Position numbers and translations under genes: made by a program. Below are positions 14,158 to 17,926 of a stretch of DNA of 64,000 nucleotides, piece by piece; position 1 is the first letter of the stretch; every line of letters starts with the position of its first letter. This stretch comes from Candidatus Methylacidiphilales bacterium (GTDB lineage Bacteria; Pseudomonadota; Gammaproteobacteria; JASGCS01): positions 1-64,000 of the forward strand of contig JASGCS010000001.1 in the NCBI GenBank assembly GCA_030054035.1. The letters run 5' to 3'. The notes beneath the pieces were generated by a model. That model did no database searches. It saw only the letters and a list, made by a program, of their open reading frames with translations, and was not told the origin of the DNA.

Positions 14158-15144
14158 ATGGATTTTATCTACCCTTTAATTAGGCCCCTATTATTTTTAC
14201 TTGACGGTGAGTTTTCTCATACTATCACCATTCAATTACTAGATAAATGTCCGTGGTTAGTTAGAAAGTTCAGCTTTTATAAACCTGTAGTGGTCTCTGG
14301 AGTTCAATTTAAAAATCCAATTGGCATAGCTGCTGGATTAGTTAAAAATGCAGATGCGCTTATTGCATTAGCTCGTATGGGGGTTGGCTCAATTGAGGTC
14401 GGTACCGTAACTCCTCATTGGCAATCAGGTAACGATGGTCCTAGGCTCGAAAGAATAATTTCAGATCAAGCACTCGTCAATAGAATGGGTTTTAATAATA
14501 AAGGTTTTTTAATAGTGCGTGAGCGCTTACTTGCTGTGAGAAAAAAGTTACAAAATATGAATGTCGTGATTGGGGTTAATATTGGCAAACAAAAATCAAC
14601 TCCAATTGAAGAAGCGCATCTTGATTATATAGAAGGAATTCGTTTTTTCAAAACTTGTGCAGATTATTTTGTTCTCAATATCTCTTCCCCTAACACTAAA
14701 GATCTTCATTTGCTTCAATATGGAAATAGATTTAGTGATATGTTATCAAAAGTTACTACCTATTGGCAACAAATTGATTTACTTAATCAAGCGAAACCTC
14801 CTATTTTTATTAAAATATCTCCAGTCTTATCTGAAAAGGAAATTTCATTTATTATTGATTGTTGTGTTTCAGCTGGTATCAATACTATAATTGCTACTAA
14901 TACTTTACCTACCGAACAAGGCGGCTTATCTGGATTACCGCTAGCTCAAAGAAGTAAAGAAACCTTAACTTTAATAAAAAAAATCAACCCTTCAATTCAA
15001 GTCATTTCTAGTGGGGGAATAATGTCTTCTCATGAGGGAATAGAAAGATTTCAGTTAGGCGCCTCAATTATTCAATTATATAGTGGCTTAATTTATCAAG
15101 GACCAGGATTAATTAGAAACATTGCCAAATTACTTGACAAATGA
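14158..15144 (+). CDS. pyrD: Dihydroorotate dehydrogenase, quinone-dependent (class 2)
   Basis: Membrane-associated FMN enzyme oxidising dihydroorotate to orotate with quinone in pyrimidine synthesis. The N-terminal helical pair typical of class 2 is present (FIYPLIRPLLFLLDGEFSHT). FMN/substrate motifs include NPIGIAAGLVKNADA, NRMGFNNKG, NISSPNTKDLHLLQYG (catalytic Ser177 by alignment to the class 2 serine) and VISSGGIMS. Length 328 is normal. It lies between the lptE-like gene and the rubrerythrin module, an unusual place, since lptE is usually followed directly by holA. Confidence 0.97.
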   Translation: MDFIYPLIRPLLFLLDGEFSHTITIQLLDKCPWLVRKFSFYKPVVVSGVQFKNPIGIAAGLVKNADALIALARMGVGSIEVGTVTPHWQSGNDGPRLERIISDQALVNRMGFNNKGFLIVRERLLAVRKKLQNMNVVIGVNIGKQKSTPIEEAHLDYIEGIRFFKTCADYFVLNISSPNTKDLHLLQYGNRFSDMLSKVTTYWQQIDLLNQAKPPIFIKISPVLSEKEISFIIDCCVSAGINTIIATNTLPTEQGGLSGLPLAQRSKETLTLIKKINPSIQVISSGGIMSSHEGIERFQLGASIIQLYSGLIYQGPGLIRNIAKLLDK

Positions 15145-15162
15145 TATAAAATATATTAGAAT
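15134..15162 (+). promoter_or_regulatory. Promoter of the rubrerythrin operon
   Basis: A consensus -35 TTGACA (15134-15139) lies over the end of pyrD and is followed after 17 bases by TAGAAT (15157-15162), one mismatch from the -10 consensus. A transcript would start near 15169-15171, about 18 bases before the ATG, with the Shine-Dalgarno AAGGAG at 15176-15181. This is the best sigma-70 promoter in the window. Confidence 0.8.
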
Positions 15163-15171
15163 AATTCTAAA
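15155..15171. promoter_or_regulatory. Irr-box-like (iron control element) palindrome over the -10 of the rubrerythrin promoter
   Basis: TTAGAAT (15156-15162), one central A, and ATTCTAA (15164-15170) form a perfect 7-1-7 palindrome. Read over 17 bases it matches the iron control element of alphaproteobacterial Irr (TTTAGAA-N3-TTCTAAA) at all but the first position; it also resembles PerR boxes. It covers the -10 hexamer, so a bound regulator should block RNA polymerase. The Irr-like regulator at 17492-17926 is the natural candidate. Match to the site is seen; the regulator-site link is inferred. Confidence 0.75.
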
Positions 15172-15187: not shown

Positions 15188-15607
15188 ATGGAACTAAAAA
15201 ATAGTAAAACTGAAAAAAATTTAAAAGATGCGTTTTCTGGTGAGTCGCAAGCCAACAGAAGATATTTGTATTTTGCTGCGAAAGCAGATGTTGAGGGTTA
15301 CAATGATGTTGCATCTGTTTTTAGATCTACCGCAGAAGGTGAAACAGGTCACGCACATGGCCATCTAGAATTTTTAGAGGCAGTGGGTGATCCAGCTACT
15401 GGAAAGCCAATAGGCCCAACTGACGATAATTTGCGCGCTGCTATTGCAGGAGAAACACATGAATACACTGATATGTATCCAGGTATGGCAAAAGTTGCTC
15501 AGGAAGAAGGTTTTGCAGAAATTGCAAATTGGTTTGAGACCTTAGCAAAAGCTGAGCGATCTCATGCAAATAGATTTCAAAAAGCTCTTGATAGCTTAAA
15601 ATCTTAA
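15188..15607 (+). CDS. Rubrerythrin (short form, no rubredoxin domain)
   Basis: Non-haem di-iron protein of the ferritin-like superfamily that reduces hydrogen peroxide. The 139-residue product has the four-helix set of ligands: SGESQANRRY, AEGETGHAHGH, AGETHEYTDMYP and AKAERSHANRF. The C-terminal rubredoxin CxxC pairs of classical rubrerythrins are absent, so an outside electron donor is needed, possibly the Fe-S protein encoded next. The ATG at 15188 is fixed by AAGGAG six bases upstream; the longer open frame from 15122 runs through the promoter and is not real. First gene of a three-gene operon. Confidence 0.95.
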   Translation: MELKNSKTEKNLKDAFSGESQANRRYLYFAAKADVEGYNDVASVFRSTAEGETGHAHGHLEFLEAVGDPATGKPIGPTDDNLRAAIAGETHEYTDMYPGMAKVAQEEGFAEIANWFETLAKAERSHANRFQKALDSLKS

Positions 15608-15628: not shown

Positions 15629-16942
15629 ATGAGTTTGCGTGAGGGAGGGCTAGATGCCCCAACCAGACATCCAGTTCTTTGGGATAAGCCAGAGTTTTAT
15701 GATCAAGCCGAATTAGATAAAGAACTAACTAGGGTCTTCGATGTATGTCATGGGTGTCGTAGATGTGTTTCTCTCTGTGAATCATTCCCAACTCTTTTTG
15801 AACTTGTAGACTCGTCTACAAGTTTTGAAATTGATGGAGTGGATACAAAAGATTTTCAAAAGGTAGTTGAACAATGCTTTCTATGTGATCTTTGTTATAT
15901 GACAAAATGCCCTTATGTGCCTCCCCATGAATGGAATATAGACTTCCCTCACTTGATGCTTCGCGCAAAAATTGTTAGATTTGCTAAAACAGGTAGTTCA
16001 CTTCGCGAGAAAGTTCTTTCATCTACAGATATAGTTGGTAGGATTGCTTCAATCCCAGTTGTTAAGTCTGTAGTTAACTCAACTAATACAGTAAAACCAT
16101 TTAGAGTTCTTTTGGAAAAAGCGCTAGGAGTGCATCGTGAGGCATCTTTACCTACCTATCAACGATTATCACGATCATCACTTATTGACAATCAACCCAT
16201 TTCAAAATATAAAGTTTTGTTATTTGCAGGTTGCTATGCTAATTACAATAACCCATCTCTAGCTGAAGATCTAGTTTCGGTATATCAACACCAATCCGTC
16301 TCTATTTCATTATTACCTAAAGAACAATGTTGTGGAATGCCAAAGTATGAGCTTGGTGATATTGCCTCTGTGGTAGCTATCAAAGAGGCCTTAGTTGACG
16401 CTCTCTTTCAAGCGGTTTGTGATGGTAAAAAAATCGTTATTCCAGTTCCATCATGTGTATTGATGATGCGACAAGAGTGGCCACTATTGTTTCCAAATGA
16501 TGAAAAAGTACTTGCAATATCTAAATCAATTTATGATCCATGTGAGTTTTTAATGAAAATTCATCGTGAACAATTGCTCAATACTAATTTTAAAAATACT
16601 CTGGGTGTTGTAAGTTACCATGCTTCTTGCCATCAACGAGTGCAAAATATAGGCTCGATGACTAGGCAATTACTTCAACTTGTGCCAGGCACAACTGTCC
16701 ATACTATAGAGCGCTGTTCAGGACATGATGGAACCTATGGAGTAAAAAAAGAGACATATCCAATTGCTAAAAAATTAGCCAAACCTATTAGCGACGCACT
16801 TAGTAAACAAAAGTCAAATTATTTTTGTAGTGATTGTTCTTTGGCAGGCAACCATATTGTTCATATTCATGCAAACGCGACCAATCATGTGTTCACTAAT
16901 TATCACCCACTTTCACTAATTAAAATCGCATATGGAATCTAA
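15629..16942 (+). CDS. (Fe-S)-binding CCG-domain oxidoreductase, GlpC/HdrD-like
   Basis: A 437-residue soluble protein with two [4Fe-4S] motifs near the N-terminus (Cys40, 43, 46, 50 in CHGCRRCVSLC; Cys83, 86, 89, 94 in CFLCDLCYMTKCP) followed by two CCG-type domains (GCYANYNN...CCGMPKYELGD near 200-240; ASCHQRVQ...RCSGHDGTYG near 335-370). This is the layout of anaerobic glycerol-3-phosphate dehydrogenase subunit C and heterodisulfide reductase D, which pass electrons between carriers. The second CCG motif reads CSG. Sitting between rubrerythrin and DUF3501 genes, it may be the electron donor to rubrerythrin; that role is inferred. Confidence 0.9.
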   Translation: MSLREGGLDAPTRHPVLWDKPEFYDQAELDKELTRVFDVCHGCRRCVSLCESFPTLFELVDSSTSFEIDGVDTKDFQKVVEQCFLCDLCYMTKCPYVPPHEWNIDFPHLMLRAKIVRFAKTGSSLREKVLSSTDIVGRIASIPVVKSVVNSTNTVKPFRVLLEKALGVHREASLPTYQRLSRSSLIDNQPISKYKVLLFAGCYANYNNPSLAEDLVSVYQHQSVSISLLPKEQCCGMPKYELGDIASVVAIKEALVDALFQAVCDGKKIVIPVPSCVLMMRQEWPLLFPNDEKVLAISKSIYDPCEFLMKIHREQLLNTNFKNTLGVVSYHASCHQRVQNIGSMTRQLLQLVPGTTVHTIERCSGHDGTYGVKKETYPIAKKLAKPISDALSKQKSNYFCSDCSLAGNHIVHIHANATNHVFTNYHPLSLIKIAYGI

Positions 16943-17528
16943 TCTTTCAAAATTGCATATTTCCGATTTTCTAAATATTCGTGAGTATGAATTAGTTAGA
17001 AACGAATGGACAAAAAAGATTATCGCCCATAAACAAACGAGAAGATTACAAATTAACGAACATATTATGTTGTGCTTTGAAGATAAACGTACCATTTGGT
17101 ATCAAATTCAAGAAATGATCAGAATAGAAAAAATCCATTCTTCAGAACTTTTGTTAGAGGAAATTGATGCCTACTCGCCGCTAATCCCTAATGGTAGTGA
17201 GTTTAAAGCAACGATGATGATAATGTATGAAGATGCTTCCACGCGAAAAGAGTGGTTGACTAAATTAAAAAATATTGAGCATACGGTTTGGGTTGCGATT
17301 GGTGATCACCCACCTATTTACGCAATTGCTGATGAGGATTTGCCTAGAAGTGACGAAGAAAAAACCTCTGCGGTTCATTTTTTGCGTTTCCCCTTAACAG
17401 AATCTCAATGTAAAGATTTTAAGAAAGGGGCGCAGGTGTCAATTGGGGTTGATTGTAAAGTGATTACCTTAGATACTATTATGCTTTCAGATCATTTACG
17501 CAAAGCATTACTGAAGGACTTGCTGTAA
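16932..17528 (+). CDS. DUF3501 family protein
   Basis: A 198-residue cytosolic protein of unknown function, recognised as DUF3501 from its start (LHISDFLNIREYELVRNEW), the central FEDKRTIWYQIQEMIRIEK and the context: this family is regularly found with rubrerythrin and CCG-domain Fe-S proteins. No cofactor motif, signal peptide or membrane segment is visible; the only cysteines are isolated. It overlaps the end of the Fe-S gene by 11 bases, so the pair is translationally coupled, and its last 37 bases overlap the convergent regulator gene. Confidence 0.85.
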   Translation: MESNLSKLHISDFLNIREYELVRNEWTKKIIAHKQTRRLQINEHIMLCFEDKRTIWYQIQEMIRIEKIHSSELLLEEIDAYSPLIPNGSEFKATMMIMYEDASTRKEWLTKLKNIEHTVWVAIGDHPPIYAIADEDLPRSDEEKTSAVHFLRFPLTESQCKDFKKGAQVSIGVDCKVITLDTIMLSDHLRKALLKDLL

Positions 17529-17926
17529 AAAATAATCTCTGCCCCATTTAAAGTATCTGAACACAAGCCAAACTCTTTTGCTAATTCTTTAACCAAGTCT
17601 TGAGGTAGTTTATTTTTTGGATACAGGTCAATTAACTCTTTTGTTGTAGAGTCAAACATATGAAAATGAGGTGCTGTATTGGTATCATAATATGTGCGAT
17701 TAGGCTCAACGACAACTTCATTAAGTAGCCCTTTTTGTACAAAAATCTTTAATGTGTTGTAGATCGTGGCAAGAGAAATAATTTCCTCCTTTTTGTTAAT
17801 TGAATTGTATAGTTGCTCAGCAGTCACATGCATGTGAGATTGGAGTAAAAATTCCAGTAGCACAACCCTTGGCTTGGTAATTCCTAAACCATATTTACGA
17901 AGAGTGGCGACGCTTTCATTCGACAT
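17492..17926 (-). CDS. Fur-family transcriptional regulator, Irr-like
   Basis: A 144-residue regulator with the Fur winged helix (residues ~15-80: GITKPRVVLLEFLL, HVTAEQLY, ISLATIYNTLKIF). The hinge YYDTNTAPHFHMFD with His87-x-His89 and the following KELIDL resemble the haem- and iron-responsive Irr group. The structural-zinc CxxC pairs of Fur, Zur and PerR are absent; the only cysteine is Cys122. Its own TATAAT (minus strand, 17940-17935) lies about 8 bases before the ATG, leaving almost no leader. It converges on the rubrerythrin/Fe-S/DUF3501 operon and probably binds the palindrome at 15155-15171. PerR-like function is the main alternative. Confidence 0.88.
   Translation of the reverse strand: MSNESVATLRKYGLGITKPRVVLLEFLLQSHMHVTAEQLYNSINKKEEIISLATIYNTLKIFVQKGLLNEVVVEPNRTYYDTNTAPHFHMFDSTTKELIDLYPKNKLPQDLVKELAKEFGLCSDTLNGAEIIFYSKSFSNALRK

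Follow-up and report, generated by a model that had tools for sequence, protein, structure and literature searches.

A close known counterpart of the operator reported here is the iron control element (ICE) of the Irr system in Bradyrhizobium, Rhizobium and Rhodobacter sphaeroides, which has the form TTTAGAA-N3-TTCTAAA. Irr is described as an iron and haem regulator that, with few exceptions, is confined to Alphaproteobacteria (PMC7762939), and Irr-type regulators outside that class have been noted earlier, for example in Acidithiobacillus (PMC2631029). Irr adopts the FUR fold but lacks the Cys4 zinc site, and it carries an HXH motif. In R. sphaeroides, Irr binds the promoters of the rubrerythrin-like mbfA and of the cytochrome c peroxidase gene ccpA, and loss of Irr leads to higher peroxide resistance (PMC3413700). 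A second relative, PerRA of Leptospira interrogans, represses catalase, AhpC and cytochrome c peroxidase (CCP) (PMC8638851). The Zn(Cys)4 site is absent in Leptospira PerRA and PerRB, and the autoregulatory sequences of PerRA resemble Irr boxes (PMC8638967).

Bacillus PerR, which does have a Zn(Cys)4 site, controls a peroxide regulon comparable to the one described below. The Bacillus subtilis PerR box is TTATAATNATTATAA, also a 7-1-7 palindrome, from which the box studied here differs at two symmetric bases. The rubrerythrin-RFO-DUF3501 gene cluster is already known as well, and the text of the paper describing it makes no mention of Fur, PerR, Irr or a promoter (PMC5114695). Irr, PerRA and this type of box were thus each known before, and the operon was known without a regulator. 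Here we analyze a stretch of 64,000 nucleotides (the window) in which the same three gene kinds, with a rubrerythrin of the aerobic type as in that cluster, are accompanied by a candidate regulator and a candidate operator.

Operator and operon in the window

The features of the locus are as follows.

15134-15139, plus strand: -35 hexamer TTGACA, overlapping the 3' end of pyrD
15155-15171, no strand: operator ATTAGAATAATTCTAAA, a 7-1-7 palindrome of the Irr-box/ICE type, conserved in orthologous promoters
15157-15162, plus strand: -10 hexamer TAGAAT, inside the operator
15188-15607, plus strand: rbr, aerobic-type rubrerythrin without a rubredoxin domain, 139 aa (Pfam PF02915, E=1.7e-31)
15629-16942, plus strand: RFO, GlpC-like Fe-S oxidoreductase (Pfam CCG and Fer4_17; named in PMC5114695)
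16932-17528, plus strand: DUF3501 protein (Pfam PF12007, E=1e-62)
17492-17926, minus strand: irr-like gene, FUR-family regulator of the Irr/PerRA clade (Pfam FUR, E=8e-19; tree; structural model)

The palindrome proper, TTAGAAT-A-ATTCTAA, occupies 15156-15170. A reading made from the sequence alone (the sequence-only reading) had described it as embedded in TTGACA-N17-TAGAAT and as differing from TTTAGAA-N3-TTCTAAA in its first base; both descriptions were confirmed in the sequence, the former also by a promoter scan, which ranked the rbr promoter first in the region with 11 of 12 consensus bases. With a spacer of 17 nt between the hexamers, the operator covers the -10, and the ATG of rbr lies 17 bp downstream of it. 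Upstream, pyrD (14158-15144) adjoins rbr, an arrangement also present in three other genomes (G254, G350 and G141; L286-L288). The rbr product shows 77-90% identity to that of relatives.

The irr-like gene is convergent to the operon and overlaps the DUF3501 gene by 37 bp. Its Pfam match identifies it as a real FUR-family gene, and it is the sole FUR-family match in a search of the 96%-complete genome, where neither Fur nor Zur was found to account for the control of iron uptake. Searches of the regulator and the DUF3501 protein against anti-phage defence models gave no match.

Conservation of the box and its association with the Irr-like gene

The sample comprised 369 genomes of the class, namely the window genome and 368 relatives. 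All 368 are kin at the class level only. Betaproteobacteria form a large order in GTDB Gammaproteobacteria and would appear as same-order kin, so the betaproteobacterial context assumed by the sequence-only reading is unsupported. The class itself is given by one genome (G092), whose locus matches a named Gammaproteobacteria MAG at 100% identity. The window lineage appears to be isolated within GTDB Gammaproteobacteria and is not evidently betaproteobacterial.

DUF3501 was found in 160 of the 369 genomes; about 120 of these loci were fetched, and the 300 bp before rbr were read. Among the first 61 upstream regions, 42 contain TTAGAANNNTTCTAA at no more than two mismatches, compared with 1.8% of shuffles. 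The refined consensus across Gammaproteobacteria is TTTAGA(A/C)-N3-(G/T)TCTAAA, and an alignment of 88 sites shows hardly any variation in the half-sites TTAGA and TCTAA. Of sites with no more than one mismatch, 74 fall in 36,262 positions upstream of rbr against 1 in 655,965 elsewhere in the same loci, and shuffled upstream regions yield such a site in 0.02% of trials.

These counts bear on the idea that the palindrome arose by accident in AT-rich DNA between genes. In the full genome of 1,716,532 bp, the core TTAGAANNNTTCTAA has a single occurrence, and a palindrome found once per genome could by itself be accidental; the sequence is indeed AT-rich, and weaker matches in the genome are no commoner than expected by chance. 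However, the box is present in orthologous promoters at more than 1000-fold the rate of neighbouring DNA. This conservation refutes a chance origin, to which we give practically no weight. The examination of orthologous promoters, which the sequence-only reading had itself proposed, thus found strong conservation of the palindrome and a distribution that follows the regulator gene.

Across the promoter set, the distance from TTGACA to the box is 16-18 nt in 14 promoters and 34-36 nt in 44. The box thus overlaps the -10 or sits just after it, a placement that fits repression. The longer form, with the box just after the -10, is the commonest in two series of loci (L063-L122 and L224-L283), and the overlap with the -10 seen in the window is a minority form.

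A profile built from 24 Irr-like proteins was run on the 369 genomes and set Irr-like genes, with E values below 1e-27, apart from cross-hits to Fur, most of them near 1e-13. An Irr-like gene is present in about 150 of the sampled Gammaproteobacteria. The sequence-only reading had considered an Irr-type circuit in a betaproteobacterial context worthy of note; at this frequency, Irr-like genes outside Alphaproteobacteria are no rarity. With boxes of up to three mismatches counted, 83 of the 88 genomes that carry an Irr-like gene have a box, against 9 of the 29 that lack the gene (odds ratio 37; Fisher p=2e-11, a value that overstates independence, as the compared genomes are related).

The nine genomes with a box and no detected Irr-like gene run counter to the link with the regulator and lend some weight to the notion that a different regulator uses the site and that the nearby gene is incidental. 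For six of these nine, sampled relatives from the same family do carry Irr, so that missing assembly or recent loss is a plausible account. The strength of the association, the lack of any other FUR-family gene in the window genome, the membership of the box in a known type of Irr target and the recurrence of the gene adjacency in Alpha- and Gammaproteobacteria also stand against another regulator, which we regard as highly improbable. Conservation together with co-occurrence upholds the claim of an Irr-box-type operator, and the neighbouring Irr-like protein is most likely its regulator, since the conserved box tracks the regulator gene.

As for the adjacency itself, irr lies directly before rbr-RFO-DUF3501, with the box in between, in Reyranella (L156) and in two other loci (L191, L202), and an irr-like gene is found near rbr in four more (L149, L159, L105, L106). 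We notice that in five alphaproteobacterial loci (the three just named, L170 and L203) irr is codirectional with the operon and just before it, usually with an Irr-type box between them. In Candidatus Obscuribacterales (Melainabacteria; L163:5954-7230), an Irr-like gene is followed by a rubrerythrin gene, and TTTAGATTTAGTCTAAA stands just before the regulator; the pairing of the two genes thus extends beyond Proteobacteria. Upstream regions of irr hold degenerate dyads only (two to three mismatches), in some genomes, and autoregulation is not claimed.

Affiliation of the Irr-like protein

The window regulator, a protein of 144 aa, contains one Cys and no CXXC, and the Zn(Cys)4 structural site is therefore absent, as in Irr and Leptospira PerRA and in contrast to Bacillus PerR. 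NCBIfam ranks IrrA and Irr first for it, at scores below the curated cut-offs (93.2 bits where 170 are required, and 93.6 where 150 are). Irr-like proteins of other Gammaproteobacteria do not reach them either, at 100-122 bits. In the tree, the protein lies in the Irr group, divided from Fur and from Bacillus and Streptococcus PerR by a starred split (99/93), and Fur sequences from this class make up a starred clade of their own. The window protein joins alphaproteobacterial Irr at 85/92, on a long branch and with an uncertain exact place, and Leptospira PerR stands near the base of the Irr group. The AlphaFold model has a mean pLDDT of 85.6, lower in the C-terminal part. Its best PDB match by E-value, in sequence and in fold, is the zinc-less Leptospira PerR 5nl9 (TM 0.77), which comes from a different phylum and shares 31% identity over the aligned fold.

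Residues H33, D81, H87, H89 and D100 align with the sensing site of PerR, so that the five metal-ligand positions are those of Bacillus PerR, including the Asp where Fur has Glu. D100 and N57, the latter in the recognition helix, match the PerR Asp and Asn. Both are common to Irr too (PMC8638967), and they do not discriminate between PerR and Irr. The HXH haem-binding motif is present as H87-F-H89, with both His invariant. Since Irr has the same metal ligands together with HXH, the protein sequence cannot separate peroxide sensing from haem sensing. On the other hand, the C-terminal tail, KLPQDLVKELAKEFGL..., is PerR/Fur-like, in contrast to the short tail of Irr (LPxLPxGT...VDVIIRVR), which is absent, and it also sets the protein apart from other Irr-like proteins. 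The best explanation is that the regulator is an Irr/PerRA-clade protein that controls a regulon of the PerR type through a box of the Irr type.

In the recognition helix, proteins with a residue other than K at position 52 (L, M or Q) occur only with A/T-type half-sites in a small sample, and K-type proteins occur with both A- and C-type half-sites. This weakly hints that residue 52 may determine specificity for the A/C base of the half-site.

Predicted box targets and the likely signal

In the window genome, TTTAGAANNNTTCTAAA has only two one-mismatch sites, one before rbr and the other before katG. The latter, TTTAGAATGATTATAAA, is located on contig C9 (G000:C9:17140-17156; L124:1501-1517), and the ATG that follows it after 13 bp starts a gene for a catalase-peroxidase that has a signal-peptide-like N-terminus and is apparently exported. 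Among katG genes of Irr-bearing genomes, 5 of 20 are preceded by a box with no more than one mismatch, compared with 0.1% of shuffles; the box is exact in one (G120) and has one mismatch in two others (G117, G330). Exact or one-mismatch boxes also precede genes for a di-haem cytochrome c peroxidase (G121) and a peroxiredoxin (G078). The predicted regulon thus points to a PerR-type set of peroxide-scavenging genes. From the two sites, the Irr-like protein very likely represses katG too, with the counterpoint that the remaining 15 of the 20 katG genes are without a box.

None of 20 complete or near-complete genomes contains the exact box more than once, which indicates a small regulon, unlike the global iron regulon of Irr. 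A larger regulon in the window genome was considered and rejected: at three mismatches the forward pattern gave 345 matches and the reversed control 492, hence no excess, and the two-mismatch sites inspected lie mostly inside or beside unrelated genes. As weak sites are not above chance, we claim rbr and katG alone as targets here. One-mismatch boxes also lie between the divergent ftsH and rlmE in two related small genomes (G254 and G350; L297, L298).

The site, its conservation, its association with the regulator gene and the peroxide-scavenging nature of the further targets are observed; direct binding, repression and the signal are inferred. In the proposed mechanism, which is PerR-like, the protein encoded at 17492-17926 would repress rbr-RFO-DUF3501 from the operator at 15155-15171. 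Loaded with Fe(II) or Mn(II) at the H33/D81/H87/H89/D100 site, it would hold the operator and cover the -10. Hydrogen peroxide would oxidise the iron-bound form and cause its release, upon which rubrerythrin, its predicted electron-transfer partner RFO, and KatG would be made. Targets such as rubrerythrin, KatG, CCP and peroxiredoxin are in keeping with a switch that responds to peroxide, for which Leptospira PerRA offers a parallel. We consider this mechanism probable.

The same operator and regulator might instead serve sensing of the Irr type, in which rbr would be repressed at iron or haem scarcity, and the protein released or degraded when haem binds at HXH. Low-iron repression of rbr would then spare iron from an iron-using enzyme. 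The kinship of the box to the alphaproteobacterial ICE, at one mismatch, the ranking of Irr first by NCBIfam and the conserved HXH speak for such sensing, as do the iron-protein nature of rubrerythrin and KatG and the binding of alphaproteobacterial Irr to the mbfA and ccpA promoters (PMC3413700). Against it, none of the inspected box sites lies before an iron-uptake, haem-synthesis or iron-storage gene, and the window protein combines the Fur/PerR-type tail with the absence of a GCP haem regulatory motif. We therefore judge Irr-type sensing to be rather unlikely, and prefer peroxide sensing as the prediction for the window protein.

In the openly available papers searched, we found no account of an Irr-type box and an Irr-like repressor serving peroxide defence across Gammaproteobacteria; part of this regulon may have been predicted earlier, in Rodionov et al. 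2006 or RegPrecise. We tentatively propose, as an idea more likely wrong than right, that the Irr/PerRA clade began as a peroxide switch without zinc that governed the aerobic rubrerythrin operon, and that it became widespread in Alpha- and Gammaproteobacteria and reached other groups. The haem and iron sensing of Irr would then be a later alphaproteobacterial specialisation, and the window protein, the genome's only FUR-family protein, with a PerR-type tail on an Irr-type core, would be an intermediate.

Our findings show that the Irr-type box and the Irr-like gene travel together across Gammaproteobacteria, marking peroxide-scavenging genes and chiefly rubrerythrin-RFO-DUF3501. What is known from Alphaproteobacteria as an iron regulator would in this setting probably serve to switch on peroxide defence, and a poorly understood operon gains a candidate regulator. 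For about 150 sampled Gammaproteobacteria there is now a putative peroxide regulon that is open to study in cultured species, and it becomes possible to ask by experiment whether Irr arose from a sensor like PerR.
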